NCBI RefSeq assembly: GCF_024498175.1
Contig: NZ_CP101823.1
Coordinates: forward strand, 744,001-808,000
Length of the DNA: 64,000 bases
Direction: 5' to 3'
Source: Haloplanus salinarum
GTDB taxonomy: Archaea; Halobacteriota; Halobacteria; Halobacteriales; Haloferacaceae
Of this stretch, positions 25,167 to 31,172 are shown piece by piece (the stretch's first letter is position 1; each line of letters opens with the position of its first letter). The position numbers were made by a program, and so were the translations under genes. The notes under the pieces were generated by a model. It did not search any database, was not told the DNA's origin, and was given only the letters and a program-made list of their open reading frames with translations.

Positions 25167-26279
25167 TTACTCGGCAGCGCAGTTGTTCGGCCCCAGCTCC
25201 AAGTCAGCCAGTTCCGCGTCAGCGACCGATTCCTGTCCGATGTTCACCCGCTTGACGCGCTCGAAATTCGGTGGGTGATCGGGAATATCGGAGGCGAGCG
25301 TCGAAATAAAGTCCTCACGACTACGCTGAAGATCCCTGTTTCTGTCCGTAACCTCACCGAGCGTGGCAGTTACCGGTGGTTCGGGCGAACCGGGATCGTG
25401 TGCGGGAAGGACGAGAATGTCGTCCGGGTACTCCAGCAACCGCTGGAGGCTCTCGTACAGCGTGGCGGCGTTGGCCTCAACATTGGAGTCCTCGATGCCA
25501 GCTTCGACGCCGAGTTCGACGCGGCCGACGCTCTCGTGAAAGAGCGTGTCGCCCGTCAGCAGTGCCGTACCGCCGACATCGAACGAGACGCTCCCTTCAC
25601 TGTGACCCGGCGTGTGGATCACGGAAATTTCGACGGTGCCGATAGTGATGGTCTGGCCGTCTTCGAGTGGAGACGCATCGATTCCAAGTGCGTCCGCGGG
25701 ATGGAGGTAGTAGGGAACGTTATGACGGGTAGCGAGGTCTGCACCACCGGAAACGTGGTCAGCATGAGCGTGTGTATCGAGCACAGCCACAAGGTCGACG
25801 TCGTACTCGTCAATCACCGTCTCGTAGGCGTCAAGATTGTGGGAGGCATCAAAGACGGCTGCCTGGCCATCTGAGATGAGAACGTGCGAGAGACACCCCT
25901 TCCCTGGGCGGGTGATCTGAATCAACTGGCCGTCGATATCGACCGGAACCGCGGCGTGTCGGTGAACCCGACTCCAGCCGCTCATTCCGTCTTCGAGGGT
26001 CGTGGCATCGTACCCCATTTCCCATAACACGTCCGTCGCAGTCTGCGAGACGACACCCTCGGTGCACACAGTGACAATTTCCTTCTGTTTGGGCAACTCC
26101 GTGAGCGAGTCTTTCGCCGTGGCTGGTTCGCTGACCAGACGGTCGTAGACATCAATGTTCGTGCTGCCAGGAATATGCCAGTCTTCGAAGTCCTCTCGGT
26201 GACGTATGTCTAGAACGAGTACGTCATCGCCGTCAATTTGCAACCGCCTGCTGAGTTCATCCGGTGCAGTCTCTGACAT
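25167..26279 (-). CDS. Rhodanese-MBL fold persulfide dioxygenase-like protein (second copy)
   Basis: A 370-residue fusion with the same order as 16396-17586. The rhodanese domain (about 5-110) has Cys72 in VTVCTEGVVSQ; the MBL domain has DTHAHADHVSGG, HTPGHSEGSVSFDV and LLTGDTLFHESVGR; the C-terminus ends with ELGPNNCAAE. It is clearly diverged from the first copy. ATG 26279 is chosen because a TATA-like string (about 26301-26312) lies 26 nt upstream; the longer frame from 26318 would span that promoter. Divergent from a bat-type HTH gene, and cotranscribed with the MFS gene. Confidence 0.9.
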   Translation of the reverse strand: MSETAPDELSRRLQIDGDDVLVLDIRHREDFEDWHIPGSTNIDVYDRLVSEPATAKDSLTELPKQKEIVTVCTEGVVSQTATDVLWEMGYDATTLEDGMSGWSRVHRHAAVPVDIDGQLIQITRPGKGCLSHVLISDGQAAVFDASHNLDAYETVIDEYDVDLVAVLDTHAHADHVSGGADLATRHNVPYYLHPADALGIDASPLEDGQTITIGTVEISVIHTPGHSEGSVSFDVGGTALLTGDTLFHESVGRVELGVEAGIEDSNVEANAATLYESLQRLLEYPDDILVLPAHDPGSPEPPVTATLGEVTDRNRDLQRSREDFISTLASDIPDHPPNFERVKRVNIGQESVADAELADLELGPNNCAAE

Positions 26280-26367
26280 CGGTACCAACCTGTAGGAAGA
26301 GTATTTGAATATAGGCACTGCCGGACATGACCGGTACCGTTAATTCCGACGATCCACAATACCCAGT

Positions 26368-27102
26368 ATGGCCCTGTACGAGGCGTCGCTCCGGGTGAAA
26401 CACGAGTGTCCATACCGAGCGATATCTGAACGCTACCCGGACCTCACCATCCGCGAGTGGCCGTTGAGTGACTGCCAAGTGCTGGAGATCTCGTCGGAGC
26501 AAACACCGACAGACCAACTCCTCAATGACATCGATCGTCTCGGAACGGTTCTCCACGAGTCAGTCGACGACTCCGGCTACCACGTTGTAACACAGTCGTG
26601 TCTCTGTTCCCTTGAACAGTCGATAATCGACCGCTTCGAGGATCACAACTGTTTGTACCAGTCACCAACGATCTATCGGCAGGGCTGGGAACACTACACT
26701 GTTATCGCCTTCGACGAGGACGACATCCGGGCATTACTCGGCGACCTGCGTGCCGACCGAGATATCGAACTCCTCTCGAAAACCGAGATTGCGGAGAAAC
26801 AAATTCCGCACAGTATGCTGACGCCGGTCGATCAGCTGTTCGACGACCTCACCGACCGGCAACTGGCAGCACTCCAGTTGGCGCTCGAAAGCGGATACTA
26901 CGAGCAACCACGGCAGACATCACTTCGTGAGATTGCTGGCCGGACATCCGTCTCGAAGTCGACGTACGAGGAACACCTCCGGAAAGCGGAGAACAAACTT
27001 CTCACCAACGCCGGGCGATTCCTCCGACTGGTAACTGCGACCTCAACGACGAATCCTCTCCAAGCGAGGCGACAGAGACCGTCCGAACAAAGTGCGGACT
27101 GA
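26368..27102 (+). CDS. Bat-type helix-turn-helix (HTH_10) regulator, second copy
   Basis: A 244-residue regulator with a C-terminal HTH_10 domain (about 155-215): LTDRQLAALQLALESGYYEQPRQTSLREIAGRTSVSKSTYEEHLRKAE. The N-terminal sensor region is rich in cysteines (Cys14 in HECPYRAIS, Cys36, Cys78 and Cys80 in QSCLCSLEQ, Cys95), a pattern suited to metal or persulfide sensing. Divergent from the second dioxygenase-rhodanese gene with an 88-nt shared promoter region, mirroring the arrangement at 17.6 kb. Confidence 0.85.
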   Translation: MALYEASLRVKHECPYRAISERYPDLTIREWPLSDCQVLEISSEQTPTDQLLNDIDRLGTVLHESVDDSGYHVVTQSCLCSLEQSIIDRFEDHNCLYQSPTIYRQGWEHYTVIAFDEDDIRALLGDLRADRDIELLSKTEIAEKQIPHSMLTPVDQLFDDLTDRQLAALQLALESGYYEQPRQTSLREIAGRTSVSKSTYEEHLRKAENKLLTNAGRFLRLVTATSTTNPLQARRQRPSEQSAD

Positions 27103-27167
27103 GATCCGTTTCTATCACGGTTCTAATGGAAGAGCAGCTGGCCGTGCATTGAGAGCGCCAGTCTCAA

Positions 27168-27314
27168 CTACTGCTTGCACTGGACCTGACCGTGAGTGTC
27201 GAGGTTCTCGACGAGCCAGTGATTCTGACAGCGCCGACAGCCGACGACCGAGTATCGCGGGTCGGAGTGGGGGCGAACATCGCTCTCGGGGGAACCAGTA
27301 GGGTTGTCGTCCAT
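27168..27314 (-). CDS. Small zinc-ribbon protein, probably a truncated DUF5817-like gene
   Basis: From ATG 27314 the minus strand encodes 48 residues: MDDNPTGSPESDVRPHSD, then RYSVVGCRRCQNHWLVENLD and THGQVQCKQ, ending at TAG 27168. YSVVGCxxCxxxWxVE resembles the first zinc ribbon of haloarchaeal DUF5817 proteins, but the second CxxC is lost after QC and the frame stops early, so it may be a decayed copy. The family match is from memory. The rest of 27315-27769 holds no recognisable gene. Confidence 0.4.
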   Translation of the reverse strand: MDDNPTGSPESDVRPHSDPRYSVVGCRRCQNHWLVENLDTHGQVQCKQ

Positions 27315-28144: not shown

Positions 28145-28339
28145 CTAGCATTCGCCCTCTTCAGTAGCATTGGTGAGACGGCATACCCCGACCCGGATCG
28201 CCTCGCGACCAGCATCGGTCGGCGCGTAGCCGTTGGTGCGGCCGTCGATCCCCGTCTTCGCGATCAAATCACGCTCGATCGCGAGCGTCGCGACTGCCAC
28301 GAGGCAATCCCGCTGGAAGACGACCAAGTCGTGCCACAC
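28145..28339 (-). pseudogene. PadR-like regulator with internal deletion
   Basis: The 64-residue minus-strand frame reads WHDLVVFQRDCLVAVATLAI, then a short junction, then KTGIDGRTNGYAPTDAGREAI. The first part matches the start of haloarchaeal PadR regulators (FQRDLL-type helix) and the last part matches their wing and final helix (IDxRTNxYxLTxxGR). The recognition helix region in between (about 30 residues) is missing, so DNA binding is probably lost. A strong inverted repeat lies 60 nt upstream (28398-28442). Confidence 0.55.
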
Positions 28340-28397: not shown

Positions 28398-28442
28398 TGT
28401 TACCCCACGTACGGATCTATCGTTCTATTTTGTGGGGTAACA
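28398..28442. promoter_or_regulatory. TGTTACCCCAC...GTGGGGTAACA inverted repeat (23-nt spacer)
   Basis: Perfect 11-bp arms at 28398-28408 and 28432-28442 flank an AT-rich spacer that could contain a TATA box for the minus-strand PadR remnant (CAAAATAGAACG). The same arms recur at 30753-30792 around a promoter, so this is likely an operator bound by a dimer or two dimers. Confidence 0.6.
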
Positions 28443-28638
28443 GCAGACAAACCAACGACGATTCTGATGGCTTGCCAGTCGAACGTGAGATGGCCAGCAG
28501 ATAGCTGCATTCGAAGCAGAAACTTCGTGGGCGGCGGCCAAGCGATGAATTTCAGACGCGATAGATTGGGGTGGTCATCTGGAACATCGAGAGGTAACGG
28601 GCGTATGATTTATCGATCGTGTTCCTAATTCACACTGT

Positions 28639-28899
28639 ATGGCCGGTTGGAGCGATCACGAGGATGTCCATCCAGAAGAAAAACAATACAGCGTCGTCCG
28701 AATGGATGAGTGGAAAGCACCGTCAGATGACGATTTTGCAATTAAGCTCGCCGAAATTGACTCGATTGAAGAGGCGCCAACGACCGTGGCGGGCCGTGGT
28801 GAATCAATTGTGATTCTTGACAAGGACGGAAACACGGTCTCAGTCACCGAAGGGCCAGAGCATCCAACGGACACGACAACCCGCGACGAAACCGAGTGA
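28639..28899 (+). CDS. Small acidic hypothetical protein
   Basis: An 86-residue protein, opening MAGWSDHEDVHPEEKQYSVV, strongly acidic and without cysteines or membrane helices. Two beta-like stretches (ESIVILDKDGNTVSVTE) suggest a small beta fold. No family recognised. A TATA-like GATTTATCG at about 28607-28615 lies 26 nt before the start, supporting real expression as a leaderless gene. Confidence 0.6.
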   Translation: MAGWSDHEDVHPEEKQYSVVRMDEWKAPSDDDFAIKLAEIDSIEEAPTTVAGRGESIVILDKDGNTVSVTEGPEHPTDTTTRDETE

Positions 28900-28987
28900 T
28901 TCGGCCAGTTGAGAACCTCAAACGGGTGGAGAAAGGGCCCGTCGCTGGTGTTTGTACATACTAGCTCTGTGGGGGACTATTCTAGAG

Positions 28988-29458
28988 ATCTATTGGTGCC
29001 TATCGATGGAGGATGTCAGCTGTTGCTGTGTTTCCAGCCCTGATTGGAAACGGTTGAGGACTTCTGTTTGGTGCTGTGAGCAGGCCATGAGGGCGACTGC
29101 TCCGGTTTGGATTGGGAGTACTGGTTGATGGAGATTGTAGTGTGCGAGCTGGCAGCTGGGGCAGTGGATCCCTCCAGCCGGTCGATGCTCTATGACGTCT
29201 GCTCTACCAGTAGTCGTGAGTTCGCAGATAGAAACGAACTGGTCGACGTGGTCTCCGCAACCGATGATAGGGATGGTAAGCTGATCCAGAAGTAGGAAGG
29301 AAACATCGTCGTCGTCATGGCTGTGGAGAGCAGACTCACAGTCCTCGCACTGGATGGGTGGATGGCCTTCGATGTCGTCAGGAGCCGGCCGAGTAGCATC
29401 TACTGGAGGCATACTGAGAGGTATGCAGAGCGGTTGATCGCCATACAGGTAAGTTATG
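28988..29458. repeat. Duplicated ~470-bp unit, copy 1
   Basis: This stretch, containing the zinc-protein gene 28990-29412 plus about 45 nt upstream of it, is closely similar to 54054-54526. By eye most positions agree. No terminal repeats or transposase mark the ends. Confidence 0.8.
28990..29412 (-). CDS. Cysteine-rich putative zinc protein, duplicated gene copy 1
   Basis: A 140-residue protein with four metal-ligand clusters: CEDCESALHSH (about 22-32), IGCGDHVDQF with a downstream CELTTTG, HCPSCQLAHYNLHQP and MACSQHQ. The pattern of C/H pairs suggests a structural zinc fold. No family name recognised. The start MPPVDATRPAPDD is usable here but is out of frame in copy 2 owing to a 1-nt indel. 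It stands convergent to the small acidic gene and divergent from the gene at 29577. Confidence 0.6.
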   Translation of the reverse strand: MPPVDATRPAPDDIEGHPPIQCEDCESALHSHDDDDVSFLLLDQLTIPIIGCGDHVDQFVSICELTTTGRADVIEHRPAGGIHCPSCQLAHYNLHQPVLPIQTGAVALMACSQHQTEVLNRFQSGLETQQQLTSSIDRHQ

Positions 29459-29576
29459 GGATGAATAGAATCATACTAAGTTCGGAATTTATGATTGACA
29501 GCAAGCAGAACGGGACTGAGGGCCAGCGAATCTGGAGACTCCTCGAAAGTACCACCGATTGCGGAGCGAAGTGATC

Positions 29577-29726
29577 ATGCCTGAGTGCCAGAACTGTGGT
29601 GCCCACGTCACCGAGCGCTACGTTCGGGTTTTCACCCCCGACGATGTCGACGAACCGCGCGTCTGCCCCCGCTGTGAGGACCTTACTCGTGACGGAGATG
29701 GAACGGTTCGAGAGACGCGAACATGA
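29577..29726 (+). CDS. 49-aa CxxC zinc-finger protein (DUF7563-like)
   Basis: ATG 29577 to TGA 29726 encodes MPECQNCGAHVTERYVRVF, an acidic turn, VCPRCEDLTRDG and a charged tail. Two CxxC pairs (C4/C7 and C33/C36 approximately) form a zinc ribbon. The MPECxxCGAHVTxRYxRVF opening is common among small haloarchaeal zinc proteins (DUF7563 as I recall). The stop overlaps the next gene's ATG (29723), so they are coupled. Confidence 0.72.
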   Translation: MPECQNCGAHVTERYVRVFTPDDVDEPRVCPRCEDLTRDGDGTVRETRT

Positions 29727-30361
29727 CTGCTCCCTCGCTCCCCTCGGGGTTTGACATCTCGAAACACGTCGTCGCTACCCGAGCAGACTGTGCTCTTACC
29801 GTCGGGTTCGACCGCCAGCAGGGGTACATCCCACGCTTCCTCGTCCAGCTGCACTACCAGACTGCGACGACGCCTGTCGAGTGGGACGTGATCGCCCGGA
29901 TGGATCACAATGAGACCAGCGCGACCGGGCACGACGTCTATCGTGAAGGACTCCACGTCGATATCAACCGCCGGAGCGCTCAAGAAGTCCATCTAGCCCC
30001 TCGACACGGCCCGCTCCCGGCGAACCGCGGGGCCGTGATTCGGGGTTGTGTCGACTATCTCGATGCCGGAGCGGACTACTTCGTCGACGTCTTTGAGGAG
30101 CGTCACTCACCAGGGAGTCCGCCGCGGTGGACTCCCGATGGGGGTGAGCAAGAACCTACCTTTATCCGTTCGCCGCTGGTAGATGGAGGTATGAGCCGGA
30201 ACGCGGACGCCGACGCGCTCTCTCGCGAGGAGCTGACGGAGCTGCTCGCTGACGCGACGGGTACCGAACCCGAGACCCTCGATCGCGAGGCGCGCGACAT
30301 GGAGATCGCACCGCCGGTCAAGGCCGACGTGGTCGACGAATCCAGTGATTGCCAGAGTTAG
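29723..30361 (+). CDS. Conserved haloarchaeal protein of unknown function (DUF7718-like)
   Basis: A 212-residue soluble protein. The N-terminal 135 residues contain a beta-rich core with FLVQLHYQTATTPVEWDVIARMDHNE, GHDVYREGLHVDINRR, LPANRGAVIRGCVDYLDAGADYFVDVFEER, a combination I associate with a haloarchaeal family seen on mobile regions. Residues 155-212 form an acidic helical tail (ALSREELTELLADATG). No enzyme motif is recognised. Coupled by 4-nt overlap to the zinc-finger gene, which suggests joint action. Confidence 0.65.
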   Translation: MTAPSLPSGFDISKHVVATRADCALTVGFDRQQGYIPRFLVQLHYQTATTPVEWDVIARMDHNETSATGHDVYREGLHVDINRRSAQEVHLAPRHGPLPANRGAVIRGCVDYLDAGADYFVDVFEERHSPGSPPRWTPDGGEQEPTFIRSPLVDGGMSRNADADALSREELTELLADATGTEPETLDREARDMEIAPPVKADVVDESSDCQS

Positions 30362-30425
30362 TCTTCGGTATCATTCGAGAATCGTTGCGCGATACTGGTG
30401 GGGACGCCAACACATCCTCTGAAGT

Positions 30426-30641
30426 ATGTGCCGAGCTCGCAACTCCGATGACATCGGCGACGTGACACTCACCTTGGAAGATGGACGGTACGTCGCCCGA
30501 GACGAGGAAACGGATGTCGCGAGCCAAGGCAAGACACGTCCAGAGGCGTTAGCAAACCTCGCCGAAGCGCTCAAACTTCACGAGCGGCCGGTCCCCGATG
30601 GGGTGGATGTCGACGGCCCCTCGTCAGCGCCTTGGTTGTAG
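30426..30641 (+). CDS. hicB: HicB-like antitoxin, no HicA partner seen
   Basis: A 71-residue protein with the short HicB fold: VTLTLEDGRYVARDEETDVASQGKTRPEALANLAEALKLH, i.e. two strands, the DxxTxxxSQGxTxxEAxxNL motif and a helix. HicB normally neutralises the HicA RNase and represses the operon. Neither side of the gene (30362-30425, 30642-30797) encodes HicA, so it is an orphan or the toxin was lost. The C-terminal tail is short and lacks a DNA-binding domain. Confidence 0.7.
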   Translation: MCRARNSDDIGDVTLTLEDGRYVARDEETDVASQGKTRPEALANLAEALKLHERPVPDGVDVDGPSSAPWL

Positions 30642-30752
30642 CAGATACGCTTTCCAATTGGATCTGGGCCTGTACTTGCTATTTTCCTCATCAGTGCAGA
30701 CCACTGGTGCTGAGATTCAGTGCACCCGCTCCGGGGCGAGGAAGTAAGAAAA

Positions 30753-30792
30753 GTTACCCCACAATATACAATAGACTACTGCGTGGGGTAAC
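30753..30792. promoter_or_regulatory. GTTACCCCAC...GTGGGGTAAC inverted repeat framing a promoter (20-nt spacer)
   Basis: Perfect 10-bp arms at 30753-30762 and 30783-30792. The spacer contains a TATA-like AATATACAATAG about 26 nt before the ATG at 30798, and the right arm ends 5 nt before that ATG. The arms thus cover the BRE and the transcription start, an arrangement expected of a repressor operator. Same arms as at 28398-28442. Confidence 0.65.
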
Positions 30793-30797
30793 AAACA

Positions 30798-31172
30798 ATG
30801 AGCGAGTCAGGAAAACCAGAGGCTCCGGATCTCCCCGCGTACGTGACCGACCCCCTTGAGCGACAATCACCCGAACAACTGGAGACGGTCGCCGCCTATG
30901 CGGCGGCACTCGCGGACTGGAAGCGGGCACAGCGCGAGGCGGACGCGACTGCAACACGGGCTGCCGAGGCGGTCGACGAGGAGGCTATCGACGATCTCGA
31001 GGAGCGGGGGTTCGAAACTGATCCCGACGCCTACGAGGACGTGCCGTCGAAAGCGTACATCACGATCAAGGAGACCAAGCCCGGCTATCACTACTATTAC
31101 TGGCAGTGGCGTGAGGGCGATAGCTGGGCGAATGCGTATATTGGGCCCGTTACGTCAGATGATGATTCGTAG
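30798..31172 (+). CDS. Conserved hypothetical protein with helical N-terminus and aromatic C-terminal domain
   Basis: A 124-residue acidic protein. Residues 25-75 form a long helix (QLETVAAYAAALADWKRAQR); the C-terminus has YITIKETKPGYHYYYWQWREGDSW followed by YIGPV, an aromatic beta motif similar to DUF6788-type proteins of mobile elements. Function unknown. It is tightly enclosed by the inverted-repeat promoter, so it should be strongly regulated. Confidence 0.65.
   Translation: MSESGKPEAPDLPAYVTDPLERQSPEQLETVAAYAAALADWKRAQREADATATRAAEAVDEEAIDDLEERGFETDPDAYEDVPSKAYITIKETKPGYHYYYWQWREGDSWANAYIGPVTSDDDS

Follow-up and report, generated by a model that had tools for sequence, protein, structure and literature searches.

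The 64,000-nucleotide stretch of Haloplanus salinarum DNA analysed here (the window) carries two inverted repeats, or dyads, with the same arms, which raises the question of what protein reads them and to what end. The original prediction took them to be operators at two promoters once controlled by a PadR-type repressor. Its coordinates, perfect arms, and spacers are all exact in the sequence (Table 1). The arms match exactly in both dyads, and those of dyad 1 grow to 11 base pairs with the T at 28398 and the A at 28442. Four occurrences of the exact arm are present in the window, all within these dyads. The genome scan that had been proposed (3,450,905 base pairs, spacers of 15-45 nucleotides) found exactly two dyads, a reversed control over the whole genome found none, and base composition predicts 3.7e-5 dyads per genome by chance for spacers of 18-25 nucleotides. 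With only two copies in the genome and recurrence in other haloarchaea, the site is real, rare, and shared, as had been supposed.

Table 1. Features of the window that bear on the two dyads; positions count from the first nucleotide of the window.
Feature	Coordinates	Strand	Organization	Assignment	Remarks
Dyad 1	28399..28441	.	GTTACCCCAC-N23-GTGGGGTAAC; arms 28399-28408 and 28432-28441, spacer 23	Scattered (non-self) copy of the site	Ortholog in G240 with near-identical spacer
Dyad 2	30753..30792	+	GTTACCCCAC-N20-GTGGGGTAAC; arms 30753-30762 and 30783-30792, spacer 20	Self site covering the 124-aa gene promoter	
64-aa ORF	28145..28339	-		PadR relic of the original prediction; outside the system	Pfam blank; not beside the G240 dyad
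86-aa hypothetical gene	28639..28899	+		Flanks dyad 1 on the other side; neighbour only	
124-aa protein gene	30798..31172	+	Long (type A) subfamily	Proposed dyad-binding protein	

Dyad 2 has an operator-like placement. It brackets the 124-aa gene's promoter and start, as originally described, with an AT-rich, TATA-like spacer and a right arm that ends 5 nucleotides ahead of the ATG. Dyad 1 lies 59 nucleotides from the start of the 64-aa ORF and 197 nucleotides from that of the 86-aa gene, and overlaps the core promoter of no intact gene. Dyad 1 bears little resemblance to an operator at a promoter and belongs to a scattered kind of site whose non-self copies avoid promoters.

PadR repressors are small regulators of archaea that work through dyad operators, and a decayed PadR-like gene had been placed beside dyad 1. 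The 64-aa ORF is indeed close by and looks PadR-like to the eye, but it matches no Pfam family at E ≤ 1. In a relative (G240) whose dyad-1 region is 93% identical and carries the orthologous dyad, no PadR gene is called at the site. In addition, no PadR match was found in the 124-aa protein, and no PadR-like cluster stood out among the recurrent neighbours. The PadR operator reading was dropped on the lack of a local Pfam match and of a PadR gene at the G240 ortholog. A PadR binder is further disfavoured because the constant partner of the dyad is the family of the 124-aa protein, whose subfamilies bear different dyads. The suggestion that the operator has been orphaned is also unlikely, since its probable binder is encoded intact beside dyad 2. 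What stands is the broader idea that a DNA-binding protein is the likely reader of the site.

A purely local pair of operators was dropped as an explanation after scans found the dyad in many haloarchaeal genomes. Across 391 haloarchaeal genomes that evenly sample the class, the dyad of the window (type A) is present in 45, mostly on plasmids and in up to 12 copies per genome; a control scan over the same genomes gave zero in all. It is found in seven of the eight genomes of the window's genus. Public genomes yielded at least 120 stretches with the dyad, which are chiefly from haloarchaea and often on plasmids, and the few bacterial matches have odd spacers and look like chance or unrelated hairpins. 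At the first loci collected, the spacer is 20-24 nucleotides long in 142 of 153 dyads. The 124-aa family recurs at dyad loci, where its start codon mostly falls 1-11 nucleotides past the right arm. Because this set of loci was chosen by the dyad, the same 391 genomes were searched independently with a protein profile. The long subfamily was detected (E < 1e-40) in 34 genomes, and a perfect dyad is present in 32 of these versus 13 of the 357 others (p = 4e-34). Of the two exceptions, G130 has a dyad that is damaged, and G274 has one that is altered to CCTAACCCACA-N19-TGTGGGTTAGG. For genes identified through the protein search, independently of the dyad, the start codon follows closely on the end of a dyad or of a variant, and the consensus of the type-A self sites is AGTTACCCCACAaatT...GTGGGGTAACTATG. 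The original prediction hinged on the arms accompanying homologues of the 124-aa gene and being uncommon at large. Indeed, the sampled long-subfamily homologues bear the dyad or a variant at their starts, and the dyad is missing from most genomes. The 124-aa gene and the dyads are therefore probably two halves of one system, carried on haloarchaeal plasmids and by at least one virus. Counting against this explanation are the 13 genomes that hold dyads without a long-subfamily gene, together with 12 distant homologues that lack such a dyad.

A shorter and commoner subfamily (about 107 aa) has another dyad, TTAACCAACA-N21-TGTTGGTTAA (type B), in the same position. This dyad was found at the start of all 20 short-subfamily genes sampled initially, with a single base altered in a few, and it occurs in 259 of the 391 haloarchaeal genomes in up to 29 copies. 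The 104 full-length homologues comprise 54 with a type-A dyad, 36 with type B, two with variants, and 12 without a dyad, all of which are distant; intermediate proteins carry the variants CCTAACCCACA and GTACCCCACA. On the family tree, which is short and has many open forks, the dyad changes once between types A and B, compared with approximately 30-35 changes per group when the labels are shuffled. The homologue in halovirus ChaoS9 has an exact type-B dyad 1 nucleotide ahead of its ATG in different gene surroundings. Dyad copies are largely located on the same replicon as a family gene, and the match was tested over seven complete records. Only type-B dyads occur on pNRC200, pJ7-1, and ChaoS9, in each of which a type-B gene was found, and only type-A dyads occur on NZ_CP031149, NZ_CP101162, and NZ_CP118159, each with a type-A gene, while pHSAL2 has both dyad types. 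Some plasmids carry genes of both types, which weakens the notion of an incompatibility that allows one type per plasmid.

Hundreds of haloarchaea have a member of the family, for the most part on plasmids, and it was found only in Halobacteria. When 295 genomes of the phylum were sampled, all 38 of the matches listed were in the window's order or family, and a search of proteins from viral contigs confirmed nothing. A search with a type-B query gave matches in 224 plasmid records, among them pNRC200 of the model haloarchaeon Halobacterium salinarum, and the label among the matches listed is hypothetical protein. Several unusual members were also observed. On pNRC200 (L325, 1958-3486), the dyad of one type-B copy is split, with its left arm near a winged-helix gene (cluster c3), its right arm before the family gene, and approximately 1.5 kb between them; this is probably a natural disruption by an inserted element. 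Two distant family genes (L259 and L261) are preceded by a compact repeat resembling TACCCCACA..TGTGGGATA, whose spacer is much shorter; it may represent a third type of site. Other distant homologues (L265-L278), mostly from genomes of family f4, are free of dyads, and several share a neighbourhood (clusters c47-c51).

It is quite improbable that some other protein, such as a host regulator, a PadR protein, or the c3 winged-helix protein, binds the dyads and that the 124-aa gene is merely their commonest target. Type-B genes are usually divergent from a c3 gene (MarR/HVO_2833-like) located 138 nucleotides away across the dyad. However, c3 is missing beside the ChaoS9 copy, which keeps its type-B dyad, and beside nearly all type-A genes, and c3 is disfavoured as the binder on these grounds. 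Moreover, dyad type tracks the family tree, and the orthologous site in G240 is, as noted, free of PadR.

The AlphaFold model of the 124-aa protein has helices followed by a C-terminal three-stranded beta sheet (residues 87-117), within which Y, W, Q, W, R, and P-V positions are invariant. The model of a type-B protein, though of lower confidence, arranges these elements in the same order. Searches of Pfam, NCBIfam, PHROGs, PDB sequences, and folds gave weak or chance-level matches only, none at a curated cut-off, and the best PHROG, which is unannotated, has E = 0.0027. No match to a helix-turn-helix family was found for the 124-aa protein, which is predicted to form a long helix and the three-stranded sheet, and the fold search returned only PCNA fragments at meaningless values (E > 0.5). 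Because the fold has no solved relative, DNA binding is proposed without support from homology. Judging from the sequence relationships, the family most likely encodes a dyad-binding protein that represses its own gene, and we would expect the sheet to read DNA and the long helix to mediate dimerization. A dimer is likely to read two half-sites of 10-12 base pairs separated by about three helical turns. Both half-sites would then face the same side of the helix, since their centres are approximately 30-34 base pairs, or about three turns, apart. Bound protein would likely cover the TATA region and the start, and because the self site spans both, the gene's own promoter should be blocked.

The remaining dyads are distributed differently from the self sites. 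Genes were called with a codon-usage program written for this analysis, whose calls at two loci were in good agreement with public annotation. By this simple caller, on which all placement statistics rest, and across related plasmids that are not fully independent, genes contain 9 of the 182 type-A dyads, versus 74% at random. With self sites left out, 8.4% (type A) and 2.4% (type B) of dyads are within 40 nucleotides of a start, compared with approximately 20% at random, whereas 38% and 50%, respectively, are within 45 nucleotides of a stop, compared with 20-23%. Both the avoidance of starts and the preference for stops exceed all 2000 simulations for each type. Both non-self dyads of ChaoS9 overlap stop codons, one that ends orc1 and one that ends the last gene after repH.

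These statistics led us to reject the idea that the dyads are promoter operators everywhere. They also bear on the proposal, which we consider unlikely, that the protein is an ordinary regulator of many plasmid operons and that scattered dyads serve the gene that follows as upstream sites of activation or repression. Many dyads in tandem gaps are indeed 40-140 nucleotides upstream of the next start, and on a Halorubrum plasmid some precede a type IV secretion operon and the nrd genes. However, convergent gaps, which offer no downstream start, are as rich in dyads as random placement or richer (23% versus 17% for type A), and divergent gaps are poorer.

The frequent location of dyads directly after stop codons is also what RNA hairpins or terminators in transcripts would produce, an explanation that we find hardly credible. 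A fixed arm sequence and a nearly fixed spacer length are at odds with it, the few imperfect copies are altered in one arm with the other arm uncompensated, and the self site is located upstream of the start, over the promoter. The spacer, almost always 20-24 nucleotides, and the fixed arm sequence suggest a protein on DNA rather than an RNA hairpin.

For the scattered sites, we can say with less certainty that bound protein would leave nearby promoters alone and act at the ends of operons and the boundaries between genes, most probably as a transcription roadblock or insulator, or else as a plasmid-wide mark for segregation or DNA organization. Roadblock and segregation roles predict nearly identical site placement. 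The former is slightly favoured, given how closely the sites keep to stop codons, with partition as its chief rival. We regard as possible, but doubtful, that the family encodes a plasmid partition or DNA-organizing protein that uses the dyads as dispersed, centromere-like marks, with the self site serving autoregulation, as for archaeal SegB and AspA. Consistent with this, the sites are intergenic, away from promoters, and dispersed at approximately one per 15-50 kb on five complete plasmids (with almost no control hits), and at 10 of 32 loci additional dyads are found no more than 1.4 kb from the self site. The genomic setting is also that of plasmid upkeep. At 28 loci the family gene has an Orc1/Cdc6 gene nearby, some type-A genes stand opposite ParA or putative conjugation genes, ParA is divergent from the family gene on several plasmids, and on pJ7-1 and a Halorubrum plasmid a DUF6036 nucleotidyltransferase gene follows the winged-helix gene. 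The Orc1/Cdc6, winged-helix, and ParA neighbours indicate a gene of the plasmid core region. However, ParA is absent beside most copies, and type-A and type-B systems can reside together on one plasmid. On pHSAL2, another small gene is directly behind ParA and could be its partner, so the family is not clearly the partner of ParA, an assignment that is weakened by this plasmid and by the majority of loci that lack ParA.

Collectively, the protein family and its dyads suggest a system for plasmid control or upkeep that has yet to be described. When the open-access literature was searched for the arms, the hits listed included no paper on haloarchaea, although an earlier report elsewhere is possible. 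Among known systems, the stoperators of mycobacteriophages L5 and Bxb1 are 13-base-pair asymmetric, oriented sites that are read by a helix-turn-helix protein and have been proposed to act as transcription roadblocks (PMC3029335). The haloarchaeal arrangement is similar in having one (here proposed) DNA-binding protein per element, many mainly intergenic sites, and co-divergence of site and protein between types. It differs in that the site is a symmetric dyad of 40-44 base pairs and the protein has no recognized helix-turn-helix. In the archaeal segregation cassettes, segB is located downstream of segA, while aspA overlaps parB and parA and encodes a winged-helix protein (PMC5120986). SegAB and the AspA-ParBA system of pNOB8 share with the present family a small archaea-specific protein, a palindrome upstream of its own gene or cassette, and a plasmid upkeep setting. 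They differ in that ParA is adjacent to the present family at few loci only, and in the predicted helix and beta sheet, which contrast with the winged helix of AspA. The repressor-operator systems of phiH (RepR) and phiCh1 control lysogeny in the same virus group, and ChaoS9_240 has relatives in phiH1 and phiCh1. However, the published description likens RepR to coliphage repressors and reports that none of its homologues was found in ChaoS9 (PMC6471424), which does have a member of the present family.

The window itself is probably a chromosomal remnant of such an element that retains one protein gene, its self site, and one scattered site. A DUF7387 gene is located both near the family gene of the window (30426-30641) and near dyad 1 of G240 (L218, 11584-11796), and because of its presence near both places the remnant may have been rearranged from one element. 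A stretch of the window (25583-27173) is 94.7% identical to a genus-mate genome (G173, L226), close to the dyads of that genome. Elsewhere in the genome of the window is a second family gene, of type B (G000:C1:1427609-1427950; L324), whose start has a TTAACCAAC dyad with one mismatch. Perfect type-B dyads are also present at two positions, 1340219 and 1344333.

Tentatively, the family might represent a new class of archaeal DNA-binding protein that reads its site with a C-terminal beta sheet. Each plasmid or provirus would then carry an address code that combines self-repression with gene-boundary sites that silence, insulate, or sort, with types A and B as separate specificity groups. If the proposed protein-dyad system is borne out, a very common plasmid gene of unassigned role would gain a testable function, with a binding code that can be read in at least two variants. 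The silencing and upkeep of haloarchaeal megaplasmids and proviruses would become directly testable in a genetic model, and the two types would provide separate repressor-operator pairs for genetics at high salt.
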